Notes: generated by a model not told the origin, from the sequence alone. Positions 7,121 through 37,134 are shown, counted from the stretch's first letter. The stretch: 37,337 nt of DNA from Candidatus Cloacimonadota bacterium (GCA_034722995.1 JAYEOL010000059.1:1-37337), one strand, 5' to 3'. Numbers and translations: made by a program.

Positions 7121-7148
7121 GTTTAGGATTTAGGGTTTAGGATTTCGG
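7121..7148. repeat. Heptamer array RTTTAGG at the ackA 3' end
   Basis: Four tandem heptamers read on the + strand: GTTTAGG, ATTTAGG, GTTTAGG, ATTTCGG. The array contains the ackA stop codon and encodes the last residues of the kinase (SEILNPKS). Degenerate 7-nt periodicity may continue to the left (7101-7120). Confidence 0.8.
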
Positions 7149-8346
7149 ATTTTTTTAATATTGCTTCTGTCTCCATCGCAATCATAAGTTCTTCATTGGT
7201 TGGTATCTTAAGTAATTTTACTTTTGAATCCTCACCTGAAAAGTCTAAAATTCCATCTTTGGTGATTCTGTTCTTTTTTCTATCAATAATAATACCCAAA
7301 GAGTTCAGATTTGTGCAAACCATTTCACGAAGTATAGGCATATTCTCGCCGATTCCACCAGTAAAGACAATTATATCAACCCCATTCATAACAGTAAAAT
7401 AAGCACCGATATATTTTTTTAATCTATATACATAGATTTCCAGGGCATCAGATGCTTTTTGATTTTTCTTTTCAATCTCTTCTTCAATAACCCTCATATC
7501 GTTGCTTATCTCTGAAAGTCCAAGCATTCCACTTTTTTTATTCAAAATATCATTTACTTCCTGACGGTTCATACCAAGGGTTTCAATCATATAAAGTGGG
7601 ATAGCGGGGTCAAGGTCACCGCAGCGAGTTCCCATTACCAGTCCTTCTAAAGGTGTAAATCCCATTGATGTGTCAACAGATTTTCCTTTGTCTATTGCTG
7701 TGATTGATGCACCATTCCCAAGATGGCAGGTAATAGTCCTGAGCTCGTCCAAACTTTTCCCAACATATCTTGCTGCTTCTTTGGCTACATAATAATGTGA
7801 GGTGCCATGAAAACCATATCTTCTAATCTTATGTTTAGTATAGTATTCAAGAGGGAGTGCATAGAGAAATGCCTTTTTAGGCATAGTTTGATGAAATGCC
7901 GTATCAAAAACTCCACACTGCGGAATATCAGGAAATATTTTCTGACTGGCTTCAACTCCTTTGATATTGTGAGGATTATGTAATGGAGCTAATTTAATAC
8001 ATTCTTTCATTGTATCCAGCACTTTTTCATTAATTTTTACTGAGCCGGAGAACTCCTCCCCACCATGCACCAGTCTATGACCAATAGCATCAATATCATC
8101 CTTGTCTTGAATAACTCCATACTTGGAATCCATCAAATTATCCGAAATTAGCTTAATGCCTTGTGTATGATTTTCAACAGAGATTTTTATATTTTGCTTT
8201 TTTACCTTTTCAGATTTAAAAGTAAAAAATGAAATTTCCTCCCCAATCCTTTCAACAATTCCTTTAGCCAGAAGCTCTTGCATATCTGAATTAATGAGCT
8301 GAAATTTTATAGATGAACTCCCACAATTTAGAACCAGGATATTCAT
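7123..8346 (-). CDS. ackA: Acetate kinase
   Basis: The enzyme interconverts acetyl phosphate plus ADP and acetate plus ATP, giving substrate-level ATP in fermentation. At 407 residues it is close to the usual 400. ASKHA motifs are present: VLNCGSSSIKF, GHRLVHGGE, FDTAFHQTMP, YGFHGTSH, HLGNGASITAI, TPLEGLVMGTRCGDLDP and FTGGIGEN. The ATG lies one base after the ndk stop, with GGAG inside the ndk 3' end, so the two are translationally linked. The C-terminal tail ILNPKS is written by a heptanucleotide repeat array rather than by conserved kinase sequence. No phosphotransacetylase gene is seen nearby. Confidence 0.97.
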   Translation of the reverse strand: MNILVLNCGSSSIKFQLINSDMQELLAKGIVERIGEEISFFTFKSEKVKKQNIKISVENHTQGIKLISDNLMDSKYGVIQDKDDIDAIGHRLVHGGEEFSGSVKINEKVLDTMKECIKLAPLHNPHNIKGVEASQKIFPDIPQCGVFDTAFHQTMPKKAFLYALPLEYYTKHKIRRYGFHGTSHYYVAKEAARYVGKSLDELRTITCHLGNGASITAIDKGKSVDTSMGFTPLEGLVMGTRCGDLDPAIPLYMIETLGMNRQEVNDILNKKSGMLGLSEISNDMRVIEEEIEKKNQKASDALEIYVYRLKKYIGAYFTVMNGVDIIVFTGGIGENMPILREMVCTNLNSLGIIIDRKKNRITKDGILDFSGEDSKVKLLKIPTNEELMIAMETEAILKKSEILNPKS

Positions 8347-8347
8347 T

Positions 8348-8791
8348 TTAGACTTCTCCTTTCTTTTTGTGTCTGAAAATTACATCTATCTCATATACAG
8401 CACTTTCAATACTATCAGATGCATGGATAGCATTTCGTTGTATATCAGTACCATATCTATTTCTTATTGTTCCTTTGTCAGCAATTTTTGAATCAGTATC
8501 TCCTGCTAATCTTCTTAATCTATTAATTGCATCTTCTCTTTCAAGAACCATTGTAATAATTGGACCGCTCGTCATAAACTCAATTAATTCATCGTAAAAA
8601 TGTTTATTTTTGTGGATGTAATAAAACCTCTGAGCAATATTTCGATTCATCTGGAGCATTTTCATTTTTAAAATATTGAAATTATTGTTTTCTAATATTG
8701 TAAGTATTTCTCCGATTTTTCCGGAAGAAACCGCATCAGGTTTTATAAGGCAGAGTGTTCTCTCTATATCCAAATTATTTTGGGGAGTCAT
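8348..8791 (-). CDS. ndk: Nucleoside diphosphate kinase
   Basis: The enzyme transfers phosphate from ATP to NDPs through a phosphohistidine. The 147 residues match the family (about 140) plus a short basic tail (RHKKKGEV). Landmarks are ERTLCLIKPDAV at the N-terminus, the TMVLEREDAI and RLRRLAGDTDS nucleotide-site segments, and RNAIHASDS with the catalytic His. The gene lies between a small cysteine protein (16 bases upstream) and ackA (1 base downstream). Its pairing with ackA links ATP production to NTP balance. The ribosome site upstream of the ATG is weak, consistent with coupling to upstream genes. Confidence 0.96.
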   Translation of the reverse strand: MTPQNNLDIERTLCLIKPDAVSSGKIGEILTILENNNFNILKMKMLQMNRNIAQRFYYIHKNKHFYDELIEFMTSGPIITMVLEREDAINRLRRLAGDTDSKIADKGTIRNRYGTDIQRNAIHASDSIESAVYEIDVIFRHKKKGEV

Positions 8792-8807
8792 ATAAACCTA
8801 TAGGGCC

Positions 8808-9008
8808 TCATTTTTCTTTATTACTCTCTTGTGTTTTCTTATCAATTGAAGATTCTTCCTTTTTTTTCTCAATTTTCTTTGCTTTGAACTGTCCGCAATT
8901 CTGTGATTTTGAAACAATCATTCCAAACCACTTTGATGAAAAATTTTCACAATGTTGACTTTTCCAGTAAATGCAGTTTTCACATGCTATCTTTATCTGG
9001 TCTGACAT
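8808..9008 (-). CDS. Small four-cysteine protein, putative metal- or thiol-binding
   Basis: The 66-residue protein has Cys at positions 9, 12, 20 and 38 (CENC, then HC, then NCGQF) and a highly charged Lys/Glu tail from about residue 42. The C-x2-C-x7-C-x17-C spacing could bind zinc or an iron-sulfur cluster, or form disulfides. It starts 5 bases after the trxA stop and ends 16 bases before ndk, all on one strand. That makes it a genuine operon member and a plausible thioredoxin client or accessory. I do not recognise a named family. Confidence 0.75.
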   Translation of the reverse strand: MSDQIKIACENCIYWKSQHCENFSSKWFGMIVSKSQNCGQFKAKKIEKKKEESSIDKKTQESNKEK

Positions 9009-9013
9009 AAATT

Positions 9014-9334
9014 CTATGAAATATATTGGTCTATTTTTTCTTTAATGTTCCTTTTAGGAACCACGCCAATCATCTGGTCCATTGCTTTTCCATCTTTGAA
9101 TATAAGTAATGTAGGGATGCTCATAATGCTAAACCTTTGTGCTATTTTTGGTTCTGCCTGCACATCACATTCTGCTATTACTACTTTTCCATCATCTACC
9201 TCATTTGCCAGTTCATCAATAACAGGGTTCATCATTTTGCAAGGCATACACCACTCAGCCCAAAAATCTACTAATATTACTTTACCTGAGTTAACAACTT
9301 CATCAAAGTTTTTTTGATTCAATTTTATTGCCAT
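9014..9334 (-). CDS. trxA: Thioredoxin
   Basis: A 106-residue cytoplasmic thiol-disulfide carrier with the thioredoxin fold. The active site is WCMPC (residues 28-32), with Met in place of the usual Gly. The cis-Pro loop is SIPTLLIF. The remaining landmarks (VLVDFWAEWC, CDVQAEPKIAQRFSI, GVVPKRNIKEKI) are typical. GGAG lies about 7 bases upstream of the ATG. It is encoded 38 bases after trxB, its likely reductase. Confidence 0.96.
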   Translation of the reverse strand: MAIKLNQKNFDEVVNSGKVILVDFWAEWCMPCKMMNPVIDELANEVDDGKVVIAECDVQAEPKIAQRFSIMSIPTLLIFKDGKAMDQMIGVVPKRNIKEKIDQYIS

Positions 9335-9372
9335 ATATACTCCTATACTATTTTCTTATTTCAATATCAGAA

Positions 9373-10332
9373 TTAAAATTTCATATTTTCAATATAGTGA
9401 CCGGCATTAATAGCTGCTCTTGCTCCTGAGCCAACTGCAGTAGTAATCTGCTTGACAGTATCAATTGTTGCATCGCCAGCTGCAAAAACGCCATGAATAT
9501 TAGCATATTGATTTTGGTCAACGATAATATAACCGCTTTTATCTCTTTTAACAAATCCTTCTAAGAATTCTGTATTGGGTTTTAAGCCAACATAGATAAA
9601 AACACCGGAGACTTTAATTTCCTTTATCTCATTAGTTTCGTTATCTTTTATTTTTATATGTGTTACTGATTTGCCATTACCTTCTATGCTTAATAATGAA
9701 CTGTTTAAATTAAAATTTATATTATCATATTTTTCTATTTTATCAAGTAAGACCTTTTCAGCAGTAGGCTTGGGAAGAAATTCAACAAACTCAATTTGTT
9801 TAACAAATCTTAAAAGAAATAGTCCTTCTTGAATACCAGAATTTCCACAACCAATTACAGCAATCTTTTTATCTTTATAGAAGAAACCATCACAAGTAGC
9901 ACAATAAGAAACACCATGACCCTTATATTCTTTCTCTCCAGGAATATTCAACAACTTAGGCTCTGTGCCAACTGCTATAATTATCGCTTTAGCTTTAATC
10001 TGTCCAGAGTTTGTATAGATTATTTTATATTTATTGTATTGGGAAGAAATGTCTTCTTCTATTTTAACTACTCTATCGGTAATAATTTCTACACCATATA
10101 TTTTTGCTTGGTTCACCATATTTTCAGCTAATTCCATTCCTGAAATACCATCAGGAAAACCAGGATAATTTTCTATCAAATCAGTAGAAGTTGCTTCTCC
10201 TCCAACTATCCCATTTTCCATAATGCATGTTTTGAATCCTGCACGACTTGAGTAAATACCTGCAGTAAGTCCGGCAGGACCTCCTCCAATGATGATTAGG
10301 TCATACGGTTCGTGTTTTCGTTCATTCATCAT
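9373..10332 (-). CDS. trxB: Thioredoxin reductase-like flavoprotein
   Basis: A 319-residue FAD enzyme that should reduce the adjacent thioredoxin. It has the FAD site IIIGGGPAGLTAGIY (13-27), the redox-active CATC (144-147), a second dinucleotide motif VIGCGNSGIQEG (159-170) and the C-terminal FAD motif GVFAAGDAT. After the second nucleotide fold the normal NADPH-phosphate motif HRRxxxR is missing; the sequence there is IEFVEFLPKPTAEKV. The enzyme may therefore use NADH or another donor such as ferredoxin. Two consecutive ATG codons (10332 and 10329) are possible starts. The Shine-Dalgarno AAGGA lies within a heptamer array filling the grx-trxB spacer. Confidence 0.93.
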   Translation of the reverse strand: MMNERKHEPYDLIIIGGGPAGLTAGIYSSRAGFKTCIMENGIVGGEATSTDLIENYPGFPDGISGMELAENMVNQAKIYGVEIITDRVVKIEEDISSQYNKYKIIYTNSGQIKAKAIIIAVGTEPKLLNIPGEKEYKGHGVSYCATCDGFFYKDKKIAVIGCGNSGIQEGLFLLRFVKQIEFVEFLPKPTAEKVLLDKIEKYDNINFNLNSSLLSIEGNGKSVTHIKIKDNETNEIKEIKVSGVFIYVGLKPNTEFLEGFVKRDKSGYIIVDQNQYANIHGVFAAGDATIDTVKQITTAVGSGARAAINAGHYIENMKF

Positions 10333-10365
10333 TCAAAATTCCTTGTTCAATATTCATAATTCTTT
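10324..10365 (-). repeat. Heptamer array GAATNNN between grx and trxB
   Basis: Six heptamers read on the + strand: ATTCATC, ATTCAAA, ATTCCTT, GTTCAAT, ATTCATA, ATTCTTT, i.e. GAAYNNN on the coding strand. The array runs from the grx stop codon to the trxB start codons and supplies the trxB ribosome site. Confidence 0.75.
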
Positions 10366-12247: not shown

Positions 12248-14035
12248 ATGAAAAAAATATTATCGGTTTTTATATTAATATTAATATCAACTTCTTCATC
12301 AAATGCATTTGAACATAAAAACACAAAGCCAAAAATCTTAAGTCTCAAAGAAGAAGAATGGTTTAAAGAAAATCCGGAAAGTTTACCTCATTGGATGACT
12401 GAAGAAGAGAAGCAAAGAATTGATGAAATTGGTAAAGATTTTATGCCAACAGACCCTCCTTCTTCACCAATAAGACAACCAGCAGAATTTGAGCCAATGG
12501 AAGGAGTTTTGATTAGATATCCTTTTGGAATTTTTACATCCATTATTGCTGAGATGGCTGAAGATGTTATCGTTTACTGTGTGGTTACTTCATCTCAACA
12601 ATCAAGTGCTTATACTGTTATGTCAAATGCTGGCGTTAATATGGATAATGTTCAATTTATTAATTGTCAAACAGATTCGTACTGGATACGAGATTATGGT
12701 CCCTGGTTTATCTTCAATGGTGAAAATGAATCCGGGATTGTAGATTTTATCTATAATAGACCTCGCCCTTATGATAACGCGGTGCCAGGACATGTAGGCA
12801 GTTATTTAGGAATTAATGTATACAATATGAATCTTGTCCATACAGGTGGGAATTATATGACTGATGGACAGGGTATTGCAATTTCAACTGACCTTGTATG
12901 GCAAGAAAATCCGAGTATGACTCATGTAGAAATTGACTCAATTATGAATGAATATCTTGGAATTAATACTTATCATGTAGTGCCAGACCCAAACAATACA
13001 TATATAAACCATATTGACTGTTGGGCAAAGTATTTAGCCCCTGATGAAATTATGATTAGAGAGGTGCCACAAAGCCATCCACAATATGATGAGATTGAAT
13101 CTGCTGTTGATTATTTTGAAAGTCAGCTAAGCTGTTATGGAACACCTTATAATATCGTAAGAGTCTATACACCAAGTAATCAGCCTTATACAAACTCACT
13201 TATTTTGAACAATAAGGTATTTGTGCCTATAACAGGAAGTTCATGGGATGATGAGGCAATTGCTTCATATCAAACAGCTATGCCAGGATATGAAGTATTG
13301 GGCTTTACAGGTAATTGGGTTTCCACTGATGCCCTTCATTGTAGAACTATGGGGGTTACTGATAGAGGAATGTTATACATTAAGCACACACCTATTGAAG
13401 ATACAGTTTACACAGTAAATGACTATTTTGTACAAGCCAACATAATTCCTTATAGTGGTGAGTCAGTGACTGAAGATTCTACTCTTGTTTATTGGAAGAC
13501 TTCAGATGAGGATGAATTTAATGCTATTCAGATGGACCATGCTGGCAATCGCTACTTTGCATTTATCCCATCTCAACCTGACGGAACAACTATACAGTAT
13601 TATATCCATTCTGCTGACAGTTCTGGTAGAAGTGAAAATCATCCTTACATCGGTGCTCCAGATGCTCATTCATTTTATGTGCAAAGTGGTGTTAGCACAG
13701 ATACGCAAATTGCTACCTTGAAAAATGTAATACTTTATCAAAATTATCCAAATCCCTTCAGTAATTTCACCACAATTTCATTTAATTTAGCCACCTGCCT
13801 TCGTCAAACTACGGCAAGACAGGCAAAATCACACAAAAAAGCACAAATAAAAATTTATAATGTAAAAGGACAGCTAGTAAAACAATTAAAAATTAAAAAT
13901 TTAAAATTGAAAATTAATGAGATTGTCTGGGATGGAAAAGATGAAAGCGGAAAGCAACTTCCTAACGGAATATATTTCTGTAGATTATCTTCTGGAGATA
14001 AATCAGCAGTTAAGAAGATGATACTTCTAAGATAG
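12248..14035 (+). CDS. Secreted Porphyromonas-type peptidylarginine/agmatine deiminase
   Basis: The 595-residue precursor has a signal peptide (MKKILSVFILILISTSSSNA), a PAD_porph catalytic domain (about 70-385), an Ig-like segment (about 395-490) and a FlgD-like sorting domain (about 500-595). Catalytic residues can be placed: Asp149 in IRDYGPW, His198 in HTGGNYMTD and Cys365 in ALHCRTMGV. MEGVLIRYP and HIDCWAKYL are also typical. It should convert arginine (in peptides or agmatine) to citrulline or carbamoyl-putrescine. Export and domain order match P. gingivalis PPAD, so peptidylarginine is the likelier substrate. The start follows GGAG by 7 bases; an in-frame TTG upstream is ignored. The sorting domain carries an odd 13-residue insert (TCLRQTTARQAKS) and a heptamer array. 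Confidence 0.88.
   Translation: MKKILSVFILILISTSSSNAFEHKNTKPKILSLKEEEWFKENPESLPHWMTEEEKQRIDEIGKDFMPTDPPSSPIRQPAEFEPMEGVLIRYPFGIFTSIIAEMAEDVIVYCVVTSSQQSSAYTVMSNAGVNMDNVQFINCQTDSYWIRDYGPWFIFNGENESGIVDFIYNRPRPYDNAVPGHVGSYLGINVYNMNLVHTGGNYMTDGQGIAISTDLVWQENPSMTHVEIDSIMNEYLGINTYHVVPDPNNTYINHIDCWAKYLAPDEIMIREVPQSHPQYDEIESAVDYFESQLSCYGTPYNIVRVYTPSNQPYTNSLILNNKVFVPITGSSWDDEAIASYQTAMPGYEVLGFTGNWVSTDALHCRTMGVTDRGMLYIKHTPIEDTVYTVNDYFVQANIIPYSGESVTEDSTLVYWKTSDEDEFNAIQMDHAGNRYFAFIPSQPDGTTIQYYIHSADSSGRSENHPYIGAPDAHSFYVQSGVSTDTQIATLKNVILYQNYPNPFSNFTTISFNLATCLRQTTARQAKSHKKAQIKIYNVKGQLVKQLKIKNLKLKINEIVWDGKDESGKQLPNGIYFCRLSSGDKSAVKKMILLR
13794..13823 (+). repeat. Palindromic insert inside the deiminase gene
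   Basis: An imperfect palindrome, CCTGCCTTCGT...ACGGCAAGACAGG, sits in frame in the sorting domain between ISFNLA and HKKAQIKIYN. The paralogous domains in this window have only PKNTKEAEI there. It encodes most of TCLRQTTARQAKS. Confidence 0.65.
13884..13918 (+). repeat. Heptamer array AATTRAA in the deiminase gene
   Basis: Five units: AATTAAA, AATTAAA, AATTTAA, AATTGAA, AATTAAT. Translated as the LKIKNLKLKIN loop before WDGKDESG. Confidence 0.7.
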
Positions 14036-14120: not shown

Positions 14121-14155
14121 TTAGATATTTGTAATTTGATATTTGTAATTTGTTA
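14121..14155. repeat. Intergenic heptamer array TTTGTAA
   Basis: Five units: TTAGATA, TTTGTAA, TTTGATA, TTTGTAA, TTTGTTA, in the space between the deiminase terminator and the end of mltG. Confidence 0.75.
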
Positions 14156-19400: not shown

Positions 19401-20471
19401 AATACTACCATAACCTATTACCGCTCTGATAATGGTGAACCATATGATACTGTATATGTGTCAATGTCAGGAAGATACAGCACATGCTTGCCTTATTTCA
19501 CTTATGATGTTTATGTAAGTGCTCCTGAACATGTTCCTTTTAGAGGTTCCATTACTATTGATAGTGATCTTACTGTTGATTATAGCTTAGGTTTAGCAGC
19601 TTTATTCAGTGACTTTGAAGATAATGATGGAGACTTTTCTCCCACTCCCTCAACTGATGCATGGGAATGGGGTGAACCCACTGCAGGAAATATTAATGCT
19701 TATTCAGGTATAAATGTATGGGCTACTAATCTTGATGGGTATTATGTAGATAATGTAGACTGGTATCTTAACTCCCCAGAATTTACTGTGCCTGATAGTG
19801 GTATATTAAATTTCTATCATTATCATAACTTTGAAGGTAGTAAAGGTGAAAAGACTCTCTATGATGGAGGAAATGTAAAAATCTCAACTAATGGTGGGAC
19901 CTCATTTAATCTTATTACTCCAGTAGGTGGTTATGATGGAACTATATCTGGTTTTAATCCAGACGAACCTGGATTTGGTGGCACAATTGATGAATGGGAG
20001 TTAGTTGAGTTTGACCTTAGTAGTTATGAAAACGATGATGTAATCTTAAGATGGCATTTTGCCTCTGATGGCTCTGTTAATAACTATTATGGCTGGTATA
20101 TTGATGATGTGCTTGTTGGTGACCCTAATAGTAGCGAACAAATAATAAATCATGTTTCTGTTAATAGTCCTCCAATAACATATAAACTTGAATTATACCA
20201 AAACTATCCTAATCCTGTTAATCCCGATATAGTCGGGACTAATATCTCTTTCTCATTGCCCAAAAACACGAAGGAAGCAGAAATAAGGATCTATAATATA
20301 AAAGGTCAGCTTGTAAAGAATTTCGAACTCCGAACTCTGAACTCTGAACTTAATAATGTTATCTGGAATGGAACAGATGATTCAGGAAAACATGTTGCTA
20401 ATGGTATCTACTTCTATAAACTTTCAATTGATAAAAAAAATATTATTAAAAAAATGATCATATTAAGATAA
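16428..20471 (+). CDS. Secreted gingipain-like C25 cysteine protease 1
   Basis: A 1347-residue exported protease. Order: signal peptide (1-25), propeptide-like region with a VNLTDSDRG-type end (about 30-220), C25 catalytic domain (about 254-615), Ig-like domains (about 620-880), a carboxypeptidase-regulatory-like domain (about 883-1050), a jelly-roll adhesin-like domain (about 1058-1236) and the FlgD-like sorting domain (about 1250-1347). The dyad appears intact: His451 in NYTAHGGQ and Cys483 in GNCCLACDF; the FGETWARATHN segment is also typical. The true start is the ATG after GGAGG (16418-16422); an ATG 12 bases upstream overlaps that site. Only 23 bases separate it from protease 2, so they are co-transcribed. 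P1 specificity cannot be read from the sequence. Confidence 0.9.
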   Translation: MQKSTFKNWSILLLLFFSTISFLFAKELNINLINDENRITVTENTYEKLSISYCFSQIKSFEVQTKKGVFNEIIIPNTYYIGEIGTPKLPASKKLIEIPFGAEVSVNVKSYTITEYKLSDYGITNPIIPVQPSLPKNIDPTTVEFEYNEDSYNQDAFTEHELATVEILGVLRGVRLARIDVCPVRYNPVTGVIQVYNDIEVDVNLTDSDRGLTEYIKASTYSPYFESVYERIINYRQHGYPAHPDLTTYPVKYLIVSDRMFETQLQPFIEWKTQKGFTVIVAYTDTLGSSAANIQTWIHAQYNAGTPTDPAPSFVLLVGDTGQIPASATGSATYKVTDLYYCSVDGDYFPEMYYGRFSATNTTQAQTQVNRTLYYEKYEFADPSYLDDVTLIAGADGYWNPAVGQPTIIYGTNNYFNAAYGFDEVHAYLTSYAGCYATIDDGICMINYTAHGGQTSWGNPNMNQTMVNNLTNVGKYPLAIGNCCLACDFGYSECFGETWARATHNTTGEPTGSIGYIGSAPSSYWFEDFYWAVGAFPIEGNNNGYVPPYDSTSWGAYDAPFVTDYVTQDALIFVGNLAVTEAHTQGYPTHVSAGPIYYWQAYNLLGDPSVVVYMTQGEVNDVSFAGLLPIGSTSFTVEAEPGSYVGISMNGVLHGAALVDESGSVDVPIIPFTTAGTADIVVTKPQYQPVMETVVVATPAVVIIDPTSIPIDTLTDVTISVYEEDGTTPIPDVNIEISGLGAFGTLEGITDTSGICVLNFGGHYGGTQVLNLRGWREGDGYNLFEESMEVTGGLDLTNPDIWITTTFGLSDTFGLNMPGTAHFTQDETDCDYTIYVVDADTFITETINDSITYTPATLTDIYGYITKTDYNVYSELFTTIEVYGTVSGIVTESENGDPVSNIEVKFYEQGADPTTDDPLFTDITNVNGFYEITEDQPVDYYDIYINEWGFNPYEELNYFLGYGTNSHDIVIDPVETAVVHGRIYDENGAVSNTTITYYRSDNGEPYDTVYVSMSGRYSTCLPYFTYDVYVSAPEHVPFRGSITIDSDLTVDYSLGLAALFSDFEDNDGDFSPTPSTDAWEWGEPTAGNINAYSGINVWATNLDGYYVDNVDWYLNSPEFTVPDSGILNFYHYHNFEGSKGEKTLYDGGNVKISTNGGTSFNLITPVGGYDGTISGFNPDEPGFGGTIDEWELVEFDLSSYENDDVILRWHFASDGSVNNYYGWYIDDVLVGDPNSSEQIINHVSVNSPPITYKLELYQNYPNPVNPDIVGTNISFSLPKNTKEAEIRIYNIKGQLVKNFELRTLNSELNNVIWNGTDDSGKHVANGIYFYKLSIDKKNIIKKMIILR
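20222..20238 (+). repeat. In-frame palindrome TCCCGA-TATAG-TCGGGA
   Basis: It encodes PDIVG within the sorting domain of protease 1 and resembles the intergenic palindrome at 5680-5693. Confidence 0.7.
20318..20352 (+). repeat. Heptamer array GAACTCT in protease 1
   Basis: Five units: GAATTTC, GAACTCC, GAACTCT, GAACTCT, GAACTTA. Translated as FELRTLNSELN. Confidence 0.85.
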
Positions 20472-23400: not shown

Positions 23401-24400
23401 TGGAAGATATAGCGTTAGCCTTCCTTATTTCACTTATAATGTCTATGTAAGTGCTCCCGAACATGTGCCTTTTACAGGTTCTATTCCCGTTGATTGTGAC
23501 CTTACCGTTGATTATAGTTTAGGTTTAGCTGCTTTATTCTGCAACTTTGAAAATAATGATGGAGACTTTTCTCCCACTCCTCCAACTAATGCATGGGAAT
23601 GGGGTGAACCTACTGCTGGTGGTATCAATGCCTATTCTGGTGTAAATGTATGGGCTACTAATCTTGATGGGCATTATGTAGATAATGTAGACTGGTATCT
23701 TAACTCCCCAGAATTTACTGTGCCTGATAGTGGTATATTATATTTCTATCATTATCATAATTTTGAAGGCAGCAAAGGTGAGAAGACTTTCTATGATGGA
23801 GGAAATGTAAAAATCTCAACTAATGGCGGAGCCTCATTTAATCTTATTACTCCAGAAGGTGGTTATGATGGAACTATATCTGCACTTGGACAGTTAGGTT
23901 TTGGCAGCTCAATTGATGAATGGGAATTAGTAGAGTTTGACCTTAGTAATTATGAAAATGATGATGTAATTTTAAGATGGCACTTCGCCTCTGATTATTC
24001 TCAACACCAATATTATGGCTGGTATATTGATGATGTGCTTGTTGGTGACCCTAATAGTAGCGAACAGTTTATTCATCCTCATGTTTCTGTTAGTAATACT
24101 CCAATAACATATAAGCTTGAACTATATCAAAACTATCCTAATCCTGTTAATCCCGATATAGTCGGGACTAATATCTCTTTCTCATTACCAAAAAACACAA
24201 ATAATATTGAACTAAAAATATACAATATCAAAGGACAGCTTGTAAAGAATTTTGAACTCCGAACTCTGAATTCTGAACTTAATAATGTCGTCTGGGATGG
24301 AAGTGATAAGAATGGAAAGAGAGTTGCATCAGGATTGTATTTCTATAAAATCTCTGCTGGGAATGAAACAATTGTTAAGAAAATGTTGTTAATGAAATAA
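20495..24400 (+). CDS. Secreted gingipain-like C25 cysteine protease 2
   Basis: A 1301-residue paralogue of protease 1. Signal peptide MKKYLCLLSVILFLCSSLFA, propeptide region to about 235, C25 domain about 244-570 with His438 in NYCGHGLPT and Cys471 in SVACNNGQF, the latter very close to the gingipain ACVNGDF pattern. Ig-like domains follow (about 575-830), then the same regulatory-like domain, jelly-roll domain and sorting domain as in protease 1, nearly identical at DNA level from about 23007 on. GGAGG lies about 8 bases upstream of the ATG. The catalytic halves of the two proteases are far more diverged than their C-terminal halves. Confidence 0.92.
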   Translation: MKKYLCLLSVILFLCSSLFAAQEEWITLSNSNSSYAVGVNVVSSNENLIEIEYQLNGFYKKPVEINGEKFSKIILPDESIFLEEGLPELPRINRSIIIPAKVKMVAKAVNYEIEEFKNIKIIPSKGNLLRSVNPEDVPYTFDNFYSTDNWFPQEIVTTYDPYILRDARGMVVEVHPFQYNPAQKILRVYKKIRVKVENVGLDNINILDVDLSDKLTADREFLTIYNRRFINFDKERYDPIPEVGNMLIITYDAFHDEVLPLYEWKLQKGIPTELVDVGTIGNNYIAIKNYIQQKYDNEGVTYILLVGDAEQIQPYDDDKDPKYTQLAGYDSYPDAFIGRLSAQSIPHVETQVERFITYERDPLIGGDWYHKGTGVASAQGSGIGWNDWADYVMMGIIRDSLLAYTYSDVDQIYDPGASAAQVTAAINAGRSITNYCGHGLPTSWSTTGFSNSAVNALVNDNMLPFIISVACNNGQFPGMTCFGEAWLRATNNTTGEPTGAIGFYGSTIGQPWEPPMPAEYEANMLLVHEEKNTYGGLCFNGSMFMMDECPIPGPDVFEHWTLFGDPSLQVRTNTPEEMTVSHSPIIPLGSTTYDVEVVGVEGALIGLYMDDTLYGYGYTDETGNVTITLLEELLNPGEMTLTVTAYNKIPYITTIDAIIPVQVTISPDTINVNESTEVTVTVLDSDGIEPEVGVNVWAMGLDYEIDSVATDTSGVAILTINYQFGPSLSIFGQRPDDSYLLFDELLYVIALDLADPDLEVTTDFGLTDGFAMNLPGIIHAYCSEDETTLWAKLNDNEYISTTEDTLEFIPDELGTVYAIISKSGYNLYQEEFPVIIAYGTVSGIVTNSETGGPVSDIEVKFYEQGADPTTDDPLFTDITNAYGLYEITEEQPVDYYDIYIDEWGFNPYEELNYFLGYGTNSHDIVIDPVETAVVHGRIYDENGAVGNTTIIYYRSDNGEQYTEVNVGISGRYSVSLPYFTYNVYVSAPEHVPFTGSIPVDCDLTVDYSLGLAALFCNFENNDGDFSPTPPTNAWEWGEPTAGGINAYSGVNVWATNLDGHYVDNVDWYLNSPEFTVPDSGILYFYHYHNFEGSKGEKTFYDGGNVKISTNGGASFNLITPEGGYDGTISALGQLGFGSSIDEWELVEFDLSNYENDDVILRWHFASDYSQHQYYGWYIDDVLVGDPNSSEQFIHPHVSVSNTPITYKLELYQNYPNPVNPDIVGTNISFSLPKNTNNIELKIYNIKGQLVKNFELRTLNSELNNVVWDGSDKNGKRVASGLYFYKISAGNETIVKKMLLMK
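24151..24167 (+). repeat. In-frame palindrome TCCCGA-TATAG-TCGGGA
   Basis: Second coding copy, identical to that at 20222, in the sorting domain of protease 2. Confidence 0.7.
24247..24281 (+). repeat. Heptamer array GAACTCT in protease 2
   Basis: Five units: GAATTTT, GAACTCC, GAACTCT, GAATTCT, GAACTTA. Same loop as in protease 1. Confidence 0.85.
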
Positions 24401-24464: not shown

Positions 24465-26513
24465 ATGAAAAGATATCTTGTCATTTTAGTAATTCTGTTC
24501 TTCTACCGAGTCATTCTCTTCTCAATTGAGGTTTCTGGTCATATTTCCACCGATACCGTTTGGTCACCGGAAAATAATCCATATCTCGTAGTGGACAATA
24601 TCTTTATAGATGAAAATGTAACTCTTACGATTGAACCAGGCACCATTGTAAAATTCAACACTGCGGATAAGGATGGTGGAGATTTTTATTACGATAATGG
24701 ATATACAGAAGCAAAATTTATGCTCGTAAGAGGAAAATTGGCAGCAGTTGGTACAAAGCAGGACAGTATCATCTTTACTCGTAACAGTTATGAGGTAGGT
24801 CAACGTTGGGGCTCTATTATTTTTATGCCAGAAAGCGACTCAACATCAATCCTAAAGCATTGTAAATTTGAATACAGCTATTTTATAAGACTTGTTTTAG
24901 GTGGTGCATATTATCAAGGTGCAGTCTCTTTTTTGAATTCCAAAGTAACTATTACAGAGTGTCTATTTAACAAGTATCTTTTTGGAATTTCATGTTATGA
25001 TTATAGTTCACCGTTAATATATAAAAACAGATTCACAACTGACCCAGGTGATGAAGATTCAGAATGTTATAGAGCAATTGATCTCTGGCATGCATATCCT
25101 ATTATTTTTTATAATGTTTTTGATAATGAGAGAACTGGTATTATATTTGGTTACCCATATACAGATTTACAAATTCCTGTAGCCTACAATACATTTATCA
25201 ATAGTTCTAATGGTATAATTTCGGATGAAGGCAATATATATATATACAAGAACAGTTTTTACAATTGTAATCTATCAATAGATACGTATAATGATATAGC
25301 AATAATAAAGGAGAATAACATTGAAGGAGGTGGAGGGATAGAGGCAGATGGAACAATCACTATTACAGAAAATATTATAACAAATGTTGGAGGTGCTATT
25401 CTTACCTGGGATTATAGCAATTGCATTATTAGTAATAATATTCTTACAAATAATGGAACAGGTATACACAATTATTATAATACATCAATAATCAGTAACA
25501 ATCTAATTATAAATAATGATAATTACGGGATAAAATGCTCTGGATATGACCTTGCACCTTTAATCATAAACAACATAATTGCAAATTGCTATAGAGGGAT
25601 TCGGTCAAAGGCAGATAGTTATATTATTAACAACATATTTTACAATATTGAGGATTATATAATATCTTATCATTATGCACAAGGTGTTAATTTTAGCGTA
25701 GGTAACTGCTGTTTACCAGATTCTATTGAGGACGATTATATTGACCTTGGTGGTAATATAATTGCGGATCCCATCTTCGTAGATCCGGAGAATGGTGATT
25801 TTCATTTACTTCCTATAAGTCCTTGCATAGATACAGGCACACCGGATACAAGTGGATATTTCATCCCACCATTTGATCTGGATTATGCTTTTCGTATCTG
25901 GGACGGAGATAATAATGGAGAAGCTATAATAGATATGGGATGTTATGAGTTTGGTGCTATGTATATTGGTGGAATTGCCGGACAGGTAACCTTAAACAAC
26001 GGAGATGGTTTCGTTCCATTAACACGGATAGAGATAGATGGTGAAATTGCCTATCCAGATACAAATGGATACTATGATGTGAATTTACTTCCTGGAGTTT
26101 ATGAAATAACTGCAACTCTGGAAGGATATGATGATGTAATTATTTCCGATATTGAGATTTTAGAAGGGGAAGTTACAATTCTCAATTTTGAGATGAATTC
26201 AAATGTTGGTGTTGATGATAATATTGTTAGTGAGGTGTCAGGGTTTGAATTAAGTAATTATCCTAATCCTGTTGTCAACTCAACTAATATCTCTTTCTCA
26301 TTGCCCAAAAACACGAAGGAAGCAGAAATAAGAATCTATAATATTAAAGGACAGCTTGTAAAACAATTCAAAATGCAAAAGGCAAAAGGCAAAATGAATA
26401 TCCTTTGGGATGGAAAAGATGATTCTGGAAAACCAGTTGCTAATGGAATCTATTTCTATAAACTTTCAGCAAATAATAAAAACTTCATCAAAAAAATGAT
26501 AGTATTAAAATAA
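24465..26513 (+). CDS. Secreted right-handed beta-helix protein with sorting domain
   Basis: A 682-residue exported protein. Signal peptide (1-21), an N-terminal cap with VDNIFIDENVTLTIEPGTIVKFN, then parallel beta-helix coils rich in Asn/Ile (about 95-440; ISNNILTNNGTGIHNYYNTSIISNN) as in NosD or pectate-lyase folds. The end cap FHLLPISPCIDTGTPD and DMGCYEFG follow. Then come a carboxypeptidase-regulatory-like domain (about 505-580) and the FlgD-like sorting domain. Such proteins bind or cleave polysaccharide; no lyase active site is evident, so binding is as likely. No Shine-Dalgarno is seen before the ATG. The palindrome 18 bases upstream may have displaced it. Confidence 0.88.
   Translation: MKRYLVILVILFFYRVILFSIEVSGHISTDTVWSPENNPYLVVDNIFIDENVTLTIEPGTIVKFNTADKDGGDFYYDNGYTEAKFMLVRGKLAAVGTKQDSIIFTRNSYEVGQRWGSIIFMPESDSTSILKHCKFEYSYFIRLVLGGAYYQGAVSFLNSKVTITECLFNKYLFGISCYDYSSPLIYKNRFTTDPGDEDSECYRAIDLWHAYPIIFYNVFDNERTGIIFGYPYTDLQIPVAYNTFINSSNGIISDEGNIYIYKNSFYNCNLSIDTYNDIAIIKENNIEGGGGIEADGTITITENIITNVGGAILTWDYSNCIISNNILTNNGTGIHNYYNTSIISNNLIINNDNYGIKCSGYDLAPLIINNIIANCYRGIRSKADSYIINNIFYNIEDYIISYHYAQGVNFSVGNCCLPDSIEDDYIDLGGNIIADPIFVDPENGDFHLLPISPCIDTGTPDTSGYFIPPFDLDYAFRIWDGDNNGEAIIDMGCYEFGAMYIGGIAGQVTLNNGDGFVPLTRIEIDGEIAYPDTNGYYDVNLLPGVYEITATLEGYDDVIISDIEILEGEVTILNFEMNSNVGVDDNIVSEVSGFELSNYPNPVVNSTNISFSLPKNTKEAEIRIYNIKGQLVKQFKMQKAKGKMNILWDGKDDSGKPVANGIYFYKLSANNKNFIKKMIVLK
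26370..26397 (+). repeat. Heptamer array AAAAKGC in the beta-helix gene
   Basis: Four units: AAAATGC, AAAAGGC, AAAAGGC, AAAATGA. Translated as KMQKAKGKM before WDGKDDSG. Confidence 0.85.
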
Positions 26514-31600: not shown

Positions 31601-33088
31601 GAGATTTCAGGACAAACAAACGCATGGGGGCAAAATAGTTTAAATGTAGAATTCGGACTTGGTGATGCCACAATTATTGACTCCCTTGTAATTGAATGGC
31701 CATCAGGTAGAACACAAACTTTAATGAATATTGATACAAATCAATTCTTAACAATAGAAGAAGGCCAAGATGAGTTGGGTGTGGATACTGTTGTTTCTAG
31801 ACCAGATGAGGATGTATTAGTGGCAGTTTATATCAATGAAAATCAGCAAAGTTTTAGTTCAGCAGATATAATTCTCAATGGCTATACAGAGGGCGTGGAA
31901 TTTCTGGACCTTATAATAGAAAACAGTTTAGTTGGAGATGCCAATTGGATCTACGAAGTCAACGAAATTGATGGTAATCTCTTGATTGCCCTTGCTGGTT
32001 CGGAAGATATTACAGGAGATGGTATATTATTCTGGCTCAAATTTCATACTGGAGTTTCTGAAGGGTTTGTCCCAATAAATATCGTTTCTGCTTTATTCAA
32101 TGCTGATATCATCCCTACTCTTCTTACTAATGGCGGTATTGAGATTGTCTTTCCTGATTATGGTGATGTGGATCAGAACGGATTTGTCCAGAGTTTCGAT
32201 GCATCCCTAATCCTAAAATATCTCGTCGGTTTAGTTGTCCTTGACCCGTATCAACAATTAAACGCAGATGTTACAATAGATAATACAATTTCTGCTTTGG
32301 ACGCTACCTTTATATTACAATATATTGTTGGCATTATTGACTCCTTGCCCTATCCAATAACAGGAGATGAATATTTGGCTTCTGGTATTCCAGAAATGTA
32401 TAATCAAACAATTTTACCCGGAGAGATAATTGATGTGCCAATAAATCTTACCTGTGTAGAGAATATTTACTCATTTGAAGCAACAGTTGAATTCAATCCT
32501 GATGATTTAGAGTATCTATCTTCTACATTTGCAGAAATTTTGGAAGATTTTATCATTGAAGAAAACTTAGATGGGGGATTAGTCAAATTTTCAGGAACCG
32601 GACTTGATGCTGTAAATAATGATGGTGAATTACTGATACTTCACTTTGCTGTTAAAGAAGACTTCAATTCAGATTCCACATTTGTAGGACTTAATCAATT
32701 GAGATGGAATGAAGATGATGTACAAATGAACTGCGCTCAAGCAAAACTTACAAACTCATTGTCAATAAGTAATGAAGAGCCTGTTCTGTGTTTTGATCTA
32801 AGTCAAAATTATCCAAATCCTTTCAAGCCGGAAACATTGATAAACTATAGTATTAAGAAGGAATCAAGAGTAATTCTTGAAGTCTACAACATCAAAGGAC
32901 AAAAGGTCATAACTCTTGTTAACGAGAAATTGAAACTAGGTTATCATTCTGTAGTCTGGGATGGAAAAGATGATTCTGGAAAACCTGTTTCTAATGGTAT
33001 CTACTTCTACAAACTCTCTATTGATAAATCCAAAGGCATTTCATCTGAAAGAACAAATATTATCAAAAAAATGATTATATTAAAATAA
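28673..33088 (+). CDS. Giant secreted FG-GAP/VCBS protein with ASPIC, cohesin-like and dockerin-like modules
   Basis: A 1471-residue exported protein. Signal peptide to about residue 36 (ending SISYAQ). Ten repeats of about 54 residues follow (DIDGDGLLDLxIGE...HYEQ...YDFTLI; about 50-570), then seven VCBS-type repeats (DYDNDGDLDLFVTN...LYxNNGDGTF; about 575-935), so two beta-propeller-like arrays with Ca-binding Asp loops. Next: UnbV/ASPIC domain (about 940-1030, EWPSGRTQTLMNI), a cohesin-like domain (about 1035-1161), a paired dockerin-like module (1163-1227, GDVDQNGFVQSFDASLILKYL and a second F-hand), a second cohesin-like domain (about 1240-1365) and the sorting domain. GGAG precedes the ATG. 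Probably a surface adhesin or scaffold. Confidence 0.9.
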   Translation: MKTKKVNANQKTLCFSTKVFSALLFFLIFISISYAQTFYEITTNGWGQGMRMSKPVFMDIDEDGLLDMFITDGCCNGNIKHFEQASGNSYKFILITQKFNDIEIKYPSAPAFADIDGDGLLDMLIGEQDGNINHYEQVSSGSYAFNLITENFNDISEWHTVPFLLDIDNDGLLDLIVGKCSGQISHYEQVSEVSYDFDLISEQFNGIDVGNFCTPTVTDIDGDGLLDLIIGEGEESGNSGGNIFHYEQNSQGSYDFTLVTDNFNEINVGRFSAPTFTDVDDDGLLDLFIGELDGNINLYEQDSAGDYDFNLITEYFVVIDVGRFSIPTFADVDGDDLLDMFIGEYDGNINHYEQVSTGSYEFTFLSDNFCGINLESSKPTITDIDNDGLWDMIVGEWRHGHVLHYEQTTAGSYDFTLITENFVEVNFGGSPAFHFTDIDDDGLLDLLVGVHTGNIGHYEQDSENSYNFTLISENFSGIDVGSYAVPTSCDIDEDGLLDLLIGKQHNGRICHYEQVSEDSYDFILIDPRFKDINREYRSAPTFADIDGDGLEDFLIGAYDGGICFYKRYNEIAEQFTKITEGDIVNDNGWSMGCSWADYDDDGYLDLYITNTGSGSPFNPEENFLYANNGNGTFTKITTGDIVNDVATSHSSSWSDYNNDGYVDLFVANSGVPGGPNSLYQNNGDGTFTSITNGPIVEDMNFTQNGVWGDFDNDGNLDLMTTSCMGTYLYRNNGDGTFAEMYILNEGYYKGVACADYDNDGNLDVFLTKYVMGGANNALYRNNGDGTFTRIIEGAIVNDGGSSPGGSWGDYNNDGDLDLFVPNTDINFLYQNNGDGTFTKITEGPIVIDEGTSRSGSWGDFDNDGDLDLFVTNGYGENNFLYENMGDGTFIRITQGDIANDGGYSIGCSWADYDNDGDLDLFVTNTQEPNFLYRNETGNNNNWINIKCIGIVSNTSAIGAKVRIKAVINGIPVWQTQEISGQTNAWGQNSLNVEFGLGDATIIDSLVIEWPSGRTQTLMNIDTNQFLTIEEGQDELGVDTVVSRPDEDVLVAVYINENQQSFSSADIILNGYTEGVEFLDLIIENSLVGDANWIYEVNEIDGNLLIALAGSEDITGDGILFWLKFHTGVSEGFVPINIVSALFNADIIPTLLTNGGIEIVFPDYGDVDQNGFVQSFDASLILKYLVGLVVLDPYQQLNADVTIDNTISALDATFILQYIVGIIDSLPYPITGDEYLASGIPEMYNQTILPGEIIDVPINLTCVENIYSFEATVEFNPDDLEYLSSTFAEILEDFIIEENLDGGLVKFSGTGLDAVNNDGELLILHFAVKEDFNSDSTFVGLNQLRWNEDDVQMNCAQAKLTNSLSISNEEPVLCFDLSQNYPNPFKPETLINYSIKKESRVILEVYNIKGQKVITLVNEKLKLGYHSVVWDGKDDSGKPVSNGIYFYKLSIDKSKGISSERTNIIKKMIILK

Positions 33089-33111: not shown

Positions 33112-36100
33112 ATGAAAGCAATTAAAATCGCAACATTACTGCTCCTTATAGGAGCAATGACTTGTTTTGCAAGCACCATTTCTAAAACATATTACTTTGA
33201 TGAACCTGTTTTGATATATGAAGGAGATTATTCAAAAGTTCATATAGAAGATGGAGTAACATTAGGAACTCCCGGTGAACCTGCGATTCCTTATATTGGA
33301 ATCAGATTATTACTTCCTCAAGATGAAAGTATCGTAAGTGTGTCCCTTGCACTAAAAGACGAAGTAAATTTAGGAAATTATATTCTTTGTCCAAAACAAC
33401 AGCAAGTTCCTCTATCAAAAATTGAAGGTGCGAAATTCACAGAACCTAATCCGGAAATCTATCAAAGCGAAACCCAATTTCCATCACGCCAATACAATAA
33501 TTACAGTACACATTATCTTGCTGGATACTCTATTGGATTTCTGGCGCTAACTCCAATTAAGTATATCCCCGCAACAGGTAAATTGTCATACTACAAAGAA
33601 ATAATTGTTTCAGTAGAAACTGAATACAACGAAGTAGCTGAATCAGCTGGACGGTTCTTATTCAAGAATCCTCAGGTAGAAAAAAGATTACAAAAGTTAG
33701 TTGATAATCCAGAAAAAATTGATAATTACATAATTACAAAATCAAGAGACGATGATGCCTATGATTACATTATTGTAACCTCTGCAGACTATTCTAATGA
33801 TTTTCAACCTCTGGTAGATTTTCATTCTCACCGGGGCTATAGAACTAAGATTGAATTAGTTAGCGATATTTATACTAATTACACTGGAGTAGATGAGCAG
33901 GACAAAATCAGAAATTATTTTATTGACCAGTATTCAAATGGTCCAATTAAATTTGTCCTTTTAGGAGGTGATACAGCACCTGATAATCCTTCTGAGAATA
34001 TTGTTTCTCATCGTGGACTTTTTGCTGACCCTGGAAGCGGTTATGCAGACGACAATATTCCAGCTGATATGTATTATGCCTGTTTAGACAGAACTTCTGC
34101 TACAGGTTCAGGTCCTGATTGGAATAATGATAATGACAATAGATGGGGTGAACCCAATGAAGCAGACCTTCTTGCAGAATTTTATATTGGAAGAATCTGT
34201 ATGAACAATTCTACTGAAATTGCTAATGCCATTAATAAAATGATGCTCTATTCTGAAACACCTGTGGCTGATGAGTTGCAGTCCGCTCTGCTTGTTGGAG
34301 AGTATCTTTGGGGACCACCCTATTATCCGACTACCTATGGGGGAACTTATATGAATGAGTTAATCGGTGGATGCAGTAATAATGGCTATACAACGGTTGG
34401 TATTCCTACTGATTGGGATATGTCCACTTTGTATGAAATGAATGGATATTGGACATCATCAGATTTATATACTCAATTAAATCTCGGACCAAACCTGCTT
34501 TGTCATCTTGGACATGGCAGTCCCACTCATTGTTTAAATATTGATAATTCAGACTTAACAACTTATCACATTACCAATGATGGAATTACATATAACTTTA
34601 TTAATGGCTATTCTCAGGCATGCTATTCTGGTTCAATGGATAACTGGCATTATAATGGATATTATGTTGGTGATTGCTTTGCAGAAAAGATATCAACAAT
34701 GCCCACAGCAGCTTCAACCTTTATAGCCAATTCTCGTTACGGCTGGGGTGAAGCGGGAGGAACCGATGGAGCCTCTCAAATATTTAACAGAGAATGGATT
34801 GATGCTTTCTTTGATGATGGTATATATTCCATTGCAGGAGCCAATCAAGTGTCAAAAGAACATGCTATCCCATTTATTGAAGCACAGCAAGTTGTAAGAT
34901 GGTGCTGTTACGAATTGAATGTTTTCGGTGACCCTTCTCTTGAACCCTGGACTGAAGAACCTACAAATCTATCTCCCACATATCCTCAAGCAATAATGGC
35001 TGGAACACCAGAAATTGATGTAATTGCTCCTGCTTTTTCAAGAATTACTGTTTATGATGACGATACTATTTATGGTTATGGTATGACGAATTTCTTGGGA
35101 GAAGGAACAGTTATTTTTGATAATATACCTCAAGAAGCAGGAATTATGCATATCTCAATCGTTGCACATAACTATTATAAATATGTTGGTGATATTACGG
35201 TTACAGCTTATGTCGTGAATGTTTTTCCTGACACTATATATGCTAATGTGCCATCAACAGTAACTATTACAGTTTTATCCCCAGATAGCATAACTCCAGA
35301 AGTTGGGGTAAATGTATGGGCTGAGGGCTTAGATTATATTTCAGATACGGTTGTTACAAACGATGATGGAATTGCAAATTTAACAGTAAATTATCCATTT
35401 GGTCCAATTGCCCAAATCTACGGACAGAGACCCGAAAACGATTATTATACATTCCATGAAGAATTACATGTAATAGCAGATGACCTAACAAACCCAGACC
35501 TGACGGTTAGTACTAATTTTGGTTTGGAAGATACATTTGCTCTTAATCTATCAGGAACAATTTATGCATATGTTGAAAATGATGAAACTACACTCTGGAT
35601 AAGTATTGATGATAGTTTATTATTTAGTACTTCTGGAAGTAGCTATGAAGTTACTCCATTAACAATGAATCCAGTTATATCAATAATCTCTAAATCTGGT
35701 TACAATTTGTATCAAGAAGAGTTTCCTGTAATAATTGCTTATGGCACTGCTTCAGGCATAGTAACAAACAGTAATACTGGAGACCCTGTTTCTGATATTG
35801 AGGTGAAATTCTATGAACAAGGTGCTGACCCAACAACTGATGACCCATTATTCACTGATATAACTAATACTGATGGATTTTACGAAATTACCGAGGAGCA
35901 ACCTGTTGATTATTATGATATCTATATTGATGAATGGGGCTATAACTCGTATCAAGAATTGGACTACTTCCTAGGTTATGGCACTAATTCTCATGATATT
36001 GTTATTGACCCTGTTGAAAGTGCTGTAGTTCACGGAAGAATTTATGACGAAGATGGAGCAGTAAACAATACTACTATAACCTATTACCGCTCTGATAATG

Positions 36101-37134
36101 GCGAGCAATATACTAAGGTAACTGTTGGAATATCTGGAAGATATAGCGTTACTCTTCCTTATTTCACTTATGATGTTTATGTAAGTGCTCCAGAACATGT
36201 GCCTTTTAGAGGCTCCATTACTATTGAATGTAATCTTACTGTTGATTACAGCTTGGGTTTTGCGGCTTTATTCTGCAACTTTGAAAATAATGATGGAGAC
36301 TTTTCTCCAACTCCTCAAACTGGAGCATGGGAATGGGGTGAACCTACTACTGGTGATATCAATGCTTATTCAGGTATAAATGTGTGGGCTACCAATCTTG
36401 ATGGATATTATGTAAATAATGCAAACTGGTATCTTGAGTCACCTGAATTCACTGCTCCTGATAGTGCTATTCTAACCTTCTACCATTATTATGATTTTGA
36501 ACAGGCCGGTTCTGGCACACTGTATGATGGAGGAAATGTAAAAATCTCAACTGATGGTGGCACCTTATTTACTCTTATTACTCCAGAAGGTGGTTATGAT
36601 GGAAATGTTACTGCTCTTGAAGAGCAAGGATTTGGCGAAACAAACTATGATTGGGAATTAGTAGAGTTTGACCTTAGTAACTATGAAGGTCAAGATGTTA
36701 TCCTGAGATTACATTTTGCTTCTGACCAAGGTGTTTGTGACCATTACGGATGGTATATTGATGATGTACTTGTAGGTAATCCTAATAATAGTAGTACTCA
36801 AATAATACATCCTCATGTTTCAACTGACAATACACAATTAACATACAAACTTGAATTATACCAAAACTATCCTAATCCTGTGAATCCCGATATAATCGGA
36901 ACTAATATCTCTTTTTCATTGCCGAAAAACACGAAGGAAGCAGAAATAAGAATCTATAATATCAAGGGTCAGCTGGTAAAGAAGTTCAAAATGCAAAATG
37001 CGAAGTGCGGAATGAATAGTATGGTATGGGATGGAAAAGATAACTCTGGAAAACCCGTTTCAAATGGCATCTATTTTTACAAACTTTCTACAGCTAAGAA
37101 AAGCATTACCAAGAAAATGATACTGTTGAGATAA
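33112..37134 (+). CDS. Secreted gingipain-like C25 cysteine protease 3
   Basis: A 1340-residue third member. Signal peptide MKAIKIATLLLLIGAMTCFA, propeptide region to about 210, C25 domain about 217-616 with His468 in CHLGHGSPT and Cys504 in YSQACYSGSMDN. Ig-like domains follow (about 620-870), then the regulatory-like, jelly-roll and sorting domains shared with proteases 1 and 2. The ATG at 33112 follows GAGGTG; an in-frame GTG 12 bases upstream overlaps that site. It starts 23 bases after the FG-GAP gene, so the two are likely co-transcribed, ending at the terminator at 37166. Confidence 0.92.
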   Translation: MKAIKIATLLLLIGAMTCFASTISKTYYFDEPVLIYEGDYSKVHIEDGVTLGTPGEPAIPYIGIRLLLPQDESIVSVSLALKDEVNLGNYILCPKQQQVPLSKIEGAKFTEPNPEIYQSETQFPSRQYNNYSTHYLAGYSIGFLALTPIKYIPATGKLSYYKEIIVSVETEYNEVAESAGRFLFKNPQVEKRLQKLVDNPEKIDNYIITKSRDDDAYDYIIVTSADYSNDFQPLVDFHSHRGYRTKIELVSDIYTNYTGVDEQDKIRNYFIDQYSNGPIKFVLLGGDTAPDNPSENIVSHRGLFADPGSGYADDNIPADMYYACLDRTSATGSGPDWNNDNDNRWGEPNEADLLAEFYIGRICMNNSTEIANAINKMMLYSETPVADELQSALLVGEYLWGPPYYPTTYGGTYMNELIGGCSNNGYTTVGIPTDWDMSTLYEMNGYWTSSDLYTQLNLGPNLLCHLGHGSPTHCLNIDNSDLTTYHITNDGITYNFINGYSQACYSGSMDNWHYNGYYVGDCFAEKISTMPTAASTFIANSRYGWGEAGGTDGASQIFNREWIDAFFDDGIYSIAGANQVSKEHAIPFIEAQQVVRWCCYELNVFGDPSLEPWTEEPTNLSPTYPQAIMAGTPEIDVIAPAFSRITVYDDDTIYGYGMTNFLGEGTVIFDNIPQEAGIMHISIVAHNYYKYVGDITVTAYVVNVFPDTIYANVPSTVTITVLSPDSITPEVGVNVWAEGLDYISDTVVTNDDGIANLTVNYPFGPIAQIYGQRPENDYYTFHEELHVIADDLTNPDLTVSTNFGLEDTFALNLSGTIYAYVENDETTLWISIDDSLLFSTSGSSYEVTPLTMNPVISIISKSGYNLYQEEFPVIIAYGTASGIVTNSNTGDPVSDIEVKFYEQGADPTTDDPLFTDITNTDGFYEITEEQPVDYYDIYIDEWGYNSYQELDYFLGYGTNSHDIVIDPVESAVVHGRIYDEDGAVNNTTITYYRSDNGEQYTKVTVGISGRYSVTLPYFTYDVYVSAPEHVPFRGSITIECNLTVDYSLGFAALFCNFENNDGDFSPTPQTGAWEWGEPTTGDINAYSGINVWATNLDGYYVNNANWYLESPEFTAPDSAILTFYHYYDFEQAGSGTLYDGGNVKISTDGGTLFTLITPEGGYDGNVTALEEQGFGETNYDWELVEFDLSNYEGQDVILRLHFASDQGVCDHYGWYIDDVLVGNPNNSSTQIIHPHVSTDNTQLTYKLELYQNYPNPVNPDIIGTNISFSLPKNTKEAEIRIYNIKGQLVKKFKMQNAKCGMNSMVWDGKDNSGKPVSNGIYFYKLSTAKKSITKKMILLR
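36988..37015 (+). repeat. Heptamer array AAAATGC in protease 3
   Basis: Four units: AAAATGC, AAAATGC, GAAGTGC, GGAATGA, translated as KMQNAKCGM. The palindrome equivalent to 20222 is also present upstream (36885-36901) but decayed by one base on its right arm. Confidence 0.8.

Follow-up and report, generated by a model that had tools for sequence, protein, structure and literature searches.

What makes or keeps a fixed 7-nt period in short tandem arrays whose sequences are unrelated? The question arises from a stretch of 37,337 nucleotides of a Candidatus Cloacimonadota bacterium (the window), in which a first-pass annotation had listed eight arrays of head-to-tail heptamers. All eight are present at the positions given. 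Array strength was scored as the matches at lag 7 and compared with lags 5, 6, 8, and 9 and with an order-2 Markov simulation of the window. An RTTTAGG array (about 7121 to 7152, unstranded; lag-7 score 17/21) spans the stop codon at the 3′ end of the minus-strand acetate kinase gene; a degenerate array, GAATNNN in minus-strand reading (10324 to 10365, unstranded; 22/35), lies directly 5′ of a thioredoxin reductase-like gene and overlaps its start; and a TTTGTAA/TTTGATA array (14121 to 14155, unstranded; 20/28) occupies a convergent spacer. On the plus strand, AATTRAA (13884 to 13918; 24/28) encodes a hairpin (KQLKIKNLKLKINEIVWDG) of the T9SS domain in a peptidyl-arginine deiminase-like protein, and GAACTCY (20318 to 20352; 23/28) encodes the same hairpin (NFELRTLNSELNN) in a C25 peptidase. 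The same domain position, also on the plus strand, carries GAACTCY in the next protein (24247 to 24281; 20/28), AAAAKGC (26370 to 26397; 18/21), and AAAATGC in a C25 peptidase (36988 to 37015; 16/21).

Lags 5, 6, 8, and 9 scored below lag 7 at all eight arrays. Equally good positions were expected 0.0 times per simulated window for seven of them and 0.2 times for the array at 10324 to 10365, the weakest of the eight and marginal against the simulation. Weak inverted complementarity around a gene end links the arrays at 14121 to 14155 and 13884 to 13918 (score 17, reached by 1% of random windows). The annotation had counted eight separate places; the arrays exist, but five of them (13884, 20318, 24247, 26370, and 36988) share one homologous protein-domain position, which it had missed, and are therefore not five independent places.

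PF18962, TIGR04183, and PF13860 scored above the curated cut-off in the four proteins scanned. All three do so for the plus-strand T9SS sorting/FlgD-Ig domain at 13730 to 14032 of the peptidyl-arginine deiminase-like protein, and profile matches place the domain at 20184 to 20468 (plus strand) in the C25 peptidase. The arrays lie between IYNIKGQLVK and VVWDGKDDSGK, where an AlphaFold2 model (pLDDT 89.9) predicts that the array-coded residues form a hairpin of strands 46 to 53 and 60 to 64. In about half of the readable copies of this Por_Secre_tail/FlgD_ig domain in the genome, the hairpin contains a heptamer array: a lag-7 array was found in 27 of 52 readable loops, against 1 equally strong array at any other lag. 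SprA is encoded in the genome, so export by the T9SS is plausible. A second site in the first loop of the domain, for example at about 13770 to 13835, carries palindromic inserts (ATCLRQTTARQAKSHKKAQ in the window protein) that differ among paralogues and among orthologues.

Could an alternating 7-residue pattern in the hairpin dictate the DNA period? Array-bearing loops do encode the hairpin and mostly keep the canonical 23 residues, so the arrays replaced loop sequence instead of adding to it. When synonymous codons were recoded at random, however, the period was lost in 24 of the 27 array loops, which makes it a property of the DNA and not a by-product of the protein (36988 to 37015 is the weakest of the five domain arrays, with a recoding P of 0.43). 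Array-free loops are equally long without such a pattern; the plus-strand domain at 32795 to 33085, with a canonical loop (ITLVNEKLKLGYHSVVWDG) and no array, provides an internal control. With the T9SS domain excluded, period 7 still leads across the genome, with 74 arrays against 23 and 24 at periods 8 and 9. A protein-level constraint is accordingly very improbable, and where predicted proteins contain heptad peptides (ELRIxN, for example), these should be taken as readings of DNA repeats.

The genome (G000; 1.89 Mb in 75 contigs) was examined over 1.64 Mb, of which 1.56 Mb was unmasked. The unmasked sequence contained 94 arrays of period 7, compared with 9, 23, 24, and 8 at periods 6, 8, 9, and 10 and 41 at the harmonic period 14; periods 4 and 5 were almost absent, and order-2 Markov simulation produced about 1.0 period-7 array. 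The annotation had proposed a genome-wide scan of tandem periods against dinucleotide shuffles and would have given up its claim had period 7 not stood out. TRF returned 132 period-7 arrays versus 19, 35, and 38 at periods 6, 8, and 9, and 1.3 in dinucleotide-preserving shuffles; period 7 thus exceeds its neighbors and far exceeds shuffled sequence. The units are AT-rich, as chance arrays in AT-rich DNA would be, but simulated and shuffled sequence yield so few arrays that the prospect of a chance origin is negligible.

The 94 arrays comprise 50 distinct consensus units, which are diverse yet not fully free: AATT-cored heptamers number 34 and TTAA-cored heptamers 1, an imbalance due in part to the composition of the genome, where AATT is 1.7 times as frequent as TTAA. 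The units are no more palindromic than genome heptamers (self-complementarity 3.48 versus 3.35), and a hairpin inside a single array was rejected as the cause of the period on that ground. A scan of 109 Cloacimonadota genomes used equal-information patterns, with AATT four times at fixed spacing. Spacing 7 was found in 70 genomes (1166 matches), spacing 6 in 3, and spacing 8 in 9, and the reversed control, TTAA, was much rarer in most of the 109. Heptamer numbers vary widely among these genomes, some of which have none. Overall, the excess of period-7 arrays is real and far above any other period in Cloacimonadota. Individual genomes deviate. In samples of G024 and G018 (L161 to L165 and L171 to L175), 100 kb of G024 contained nine period-11 arrays and zero of period 7, and periods 8 and 9 lead in G018; in G060, AATT arrays of period 8 are numerous (AATTAAAC and others), with 34 matches against 5 at period 7.

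Comparison among relatives supported the suggestion of the annotation that the period, not the sequence, persists, as near-identical flanks enclose different heptamers at orthologous and paralogous sites. At L086:5515, the genome has CCAATGA where its G003 orthologue has AAAAGGC between near-identical flanks; at the intergenic site L066:5138, GAGCGTA stands against RTTCGGG in G005 with the flanks kept; and within the window, the arrays at 26370 and 20318 differ in unit between flanks that are 89% identical. Where paralogues had flanks of 80% identity or more (19 pairs), the unit was shared to within one base in 37%. Length changes, seen in few cases, involve whole 7-nt units; a GAAACTY array in the genome (L063) and its counterpart in G003 (L200) are exactly one unit apart in length, and L295 and L305, described below, provide another case. 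In IleRS, a 7-residue (21-nt) in-frame heptamer insertion is present in G000, G003, and G005 and absent from G001 and from the rest of the class as far as the alignment could be read; this array grew out of local sequence. Arrays can thus arise in situ, and in this lineage tandem arrays whose sequence drifts are generated or retained with a step of 7 nt.

The IleRS array and the one-unit indel between orthologues are what ordinary slipped-strand expansion would produce if polymerase slippage favored a 7-nt step and such loops escaped mismatch repair, in which case such repeats could form anywhere, the arrays next to the PF05635 genes considered below would be a special case, and the window arrays would be unrelated to them. 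MutS repairs short loops; MutS1, the one repair protein looked at, is intact, which argued against loss of mismatch repair as the cause, and together with the near absence of periods 4 and 5 it fits repair of short loops. That most arrays are lone is also in keeping with slippage. The proposal is a published one: heptanucleotide repeats of varied unit were reported in 2007 to be in excess (Mrazek, as cited in PMC4679880 and PMC4692102), and slippage with a 7-nt polymerase contact was suggested at that time. The excess is therefore not new, nor is the idea of slippage with a 7-nt step, a mechanism that the annotation had held would be new. As described there, the repeats resemble the present arrays in that period 7 leads the longer units, units are many, and length and sequence vary among related genomes. 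The present arrays are likewise over-represented against chance and neighboring periods, with whole-unit copy changes in few cases. We give slippage as the sole source of the window arrays a little less than an even chance.

Recombination or gene conversion of the hairpin segment among about 75 T9SS paralogues, drawing on different donors, might also exchange units. One G000/G003 orthologue pair differs along a 130-nt tract spanning two loops, possibly a conversion tract, and certain units are found again in numerous paralogues and genomes. Such exchange accounts for spread but not for period 7 in every cassette; no donor was identified, and intergenic arrays at one site (L066:5138) differ in unit as well. 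We therefore regard cassette exchange as unlikely.

Elsewhere in the same genome, arrays are inverted around PF05635 genes, a configuration that the annotation had missed. One region (L121, G000:C22:60001-73607) holds 13 of the 94 arrays in 13.6 kb. Several of these stand in inverted orientation around ORFs matched by 23S_rRNA_IVP, PF05635 (Pfam), and annotated as four helix bundle protein. Complementary flanks, defined by alignment of the two gene flanks with a score of at least 18, were found at 12 of 18 Cloacimonadota PF05635 genes versus 6 of 446 control ORFs, and both arms were periodic with equal period at 7 of the 18 versus 1 of the 446; no arms were detectable at 6 of the 18. The arm unit differs from locus to locus, yet it matches as complement between both ends of one element, as in GGTTAGA/TCTAACC, AATAGTG/ACTATTC, and, at period 8, ATTTGGTG/ATCAACAA. 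The step is not as strict as first claimed, since some arms have a period of 8 nt and others are degenerate at about 6 and 9 nt. For 16 of the 94 arrays a PF05635 gene is no more than 300 nt away, a zone that makes up 1.4% of the DNA (12-fold excess, p = 3e-13); the other 78, including the eight of the window, have no such gene nearby. Across the 109 genomes, PF05635 and heptamer counts correlate with a rho of 0.38, uncontrolled for relatedness and composition. The L121 region appears as a hotspot or island of repeated single-strand-binding-like, nucleotidyltransferase-like, and PF05635 genes.

Complementary flanks were also found at 17 of 17 plasmid PF05635 genes (from Nostocales and other cyanobacteria, Treponema, Bernardetia, and Chlorohelix) and at a Monoglobus (Bacillota) gene, which with the plasmid set makes 18 genes in five phyla; neighboring-gene controls gave 0 of 47. 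In 12 of the 17 plasmid loci both arms are clearly periodic, all with period 7, and the units include TAATTCG, TTCAAAA, GAGGTCG, GAAGTCG, CAATTCG, and others. Four-helix-bundle proteins that are related also have related units (rho −0.48 over non-independent pairs); the structure of a relative of the PF05635 protein has been solved (2rld). Two gut phage-labelled records contain a PF05635 gene at which arms were not found (2/2), and a PF05635 search of viral contigs found no relative.

Uninterrupted sites were available for three comparisons. On Nostoc plasmids, the cytosine methyltransferase gene is intact in L303 and L304, whereas about 300 nt mid-gene is replaced by the element in L295 and L305, with a third allele in L307. 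About 180 nt of the host gene is replaced in L291 relative to L300, L301, and L302 (L300 is 95% identical to L291 where aligned), and at a cas2-cas1 locus arm, gene, and arm stand in place of about 68 nt at the end of cas1. The replaced host sequence thus ranges from 68 to about 300 nt, with no evident target-site duplication at the three sites. In the three methyltransferase alleles the arms number 4+4, 3+3, and 4+4 units, and L295 and L305 differ by one heptamer at both ends. Folded as RNA, the L295 arms are predicted to pair in a terminal stem of 32 bp (z −6.85). Heptamer arrays of this class therefore form the ends of an element that consists of arm, PF05635 gene, and complementary arm and that replaces host-gene sequence. 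Slippage alone explains neither why members of one gene family in five phyla are flanked by complementary units, nor the replacement of host sequence, nor a one-unit change in both arms. An insertion sequence or MITE was rejected as well, given locus-specific arm sequence, the lack of fixed terminal inverted repeats, and the replacements without evident target-site duplication.

The closest known system is the intervening sequence (IVS) of 23S rRNA with an S23/IVP ORF, as in Coxiella and Leptospira: about 430 nt long, with complementary ends that form a stem, it takes the place of a short host-gene segment, is sporadically distributed, and has been called selfish, and its four-helix-bundle proteins, one of which has a solved structure from X. 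campestris, have no known function (PMC4990558). The elements described here share the PF05635-type ORF, the complementary stem-forming ends, and the replacement of a host piece. They differ in location, as PF05635 loci were found in a cyanobacterial methyltransferase gene, at cas1/cas2, in other protein genes, and in spacers, for which reason we call them IVS-like and not rRNA IVSs; they differ also in their ends, which are tandem heptamer arrays with a unit particular to the locus. The element looks, and probably works, like an IVS, with ends of a kind not described for IVSs, and we infer that arm, gene, and arm constitute a selfish element of the IVS type. Its transcript would fold into a long hairpin through the complementary arms, and the hairpin would likely be cut by RNase III, as in 23S rRNA IVSs. 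In that case, complementarity and register, not sequence, are selectable, and arms would gain or lose whole units together. This reading offers no reason for a step of 7.

Other heptamer arrays, mostly intergenic, are described in two reports: cyanobacterial STRRs, GGGAATC in Xanthomonas, and GGGGAYT in Nostoc (PMC4692102), and TAACTGA in Beggiatoaceae (PMC4679880). One inverted pair is described there for Xanthomonas. Each such family has one consensus, in contrast to the roughly 50 units here, and a cyanobacterial STRR identity was rejected for this reason. The accessible text on the heptanucleotide repeats of 2007 does not link them to PF05635 genes, to inverted pairs that flank a gene, or to replaced host sequence. 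Bacillus repeats also conserve size and not sequence, but the parts available give units of 52 or 20 to 21 nt and describe no pairing around a gene (PMC8161180).

No PF05635 gene was found near any of the eight window arrays, which makes them lone members of the class. They may be single arms, gene-less derivatives, or products of the same 7-nt slippage, a view we consider rather less likely than not. Within coding sequence, arrays would be retained only where they are tolerated, as in the exposed hairpin of the sorting domain. Direct derivation of the T9SS arrays from PF05635 elements was rejected: an inverted partner was found for only 3 of 26 T9SS-loop arrays. PF05635 matches come within 1 kb of a T9SS domain at a single place, L086, as three fragments of one disrupted gene region. 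Gene-less inverted heptamer pairs with short loops occur at G075:C54:81-153, G075:C42:5361-5427, and L112:12315-12413 of G000 and are possibly miniature versions of the element.

The account that we favor, and consider somewhat probable, joins a lineage that carries 7-nt-step arrays with an IVS-type PF05635 element that has array ends, the lone arrays being possibly derived from it. Its extension is more doubtful, namely, that IVS-like elements with locus-specific heptamer arms occur across phyla and that the bacterial heptamer excess in cyanobacteria, Xanthomonas, Beggiatoaceae, and Cloacimonadota, lone arrays included, consists largely of their arms and footprints. As far as the open-access literature was searched, most subscription papers lying outside it, no paper joins heptamer arrays and PF05635 genes, and the arrays as inverted complementary ends of these genes appear to be new. 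For the dominance of heptamers among longer bacterial short repeats, slippage had been the only proposal; a link to S23/IVP proteins makes both testable. Free arm sequence with a kept period and complementarity points to a structure-dependent process, either RNA hairpin processing or hairpin-templated copying, and to elements of a type that breaks into protein-coding genes, including cas1 and a DNA methyltransferase gene.

On plasmids, PF05635 elements were seen inside defense or DNA-modification loci (L287, L290, L310, L289, L294, and L295), where they separate cas2 from cas1, hsdS from hsdR, or helicase from methylase genes, or else interrupt the gene for a cytosine methyltransferase. Avd of diversity-generating retroelements has a fold related to that of the four-helix-bundle protein; no reverse transcriptase appeared among the annotated neighbors of PF05635 loci. 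The genome also contains a short GC-rich palindrome, TCCCGAT(n)ATCGGGA, in 91 copies (0.1 with shuffled arms), of which the window holds those at 5680 to 5693, 20223 to 20237, and 24152 to 24166. Its presence differs between orthologous places, at 20223 and 24152 it encodes part of the T9SS domain (NPDIVGTN), and it has the look of a small mobile palindrome, one that inserts into coding sequence as well. Finally, the end of a D-alanine ligase-like gene contains a perfect 143-bp tandem duplication at window positions 5858 to 6143.
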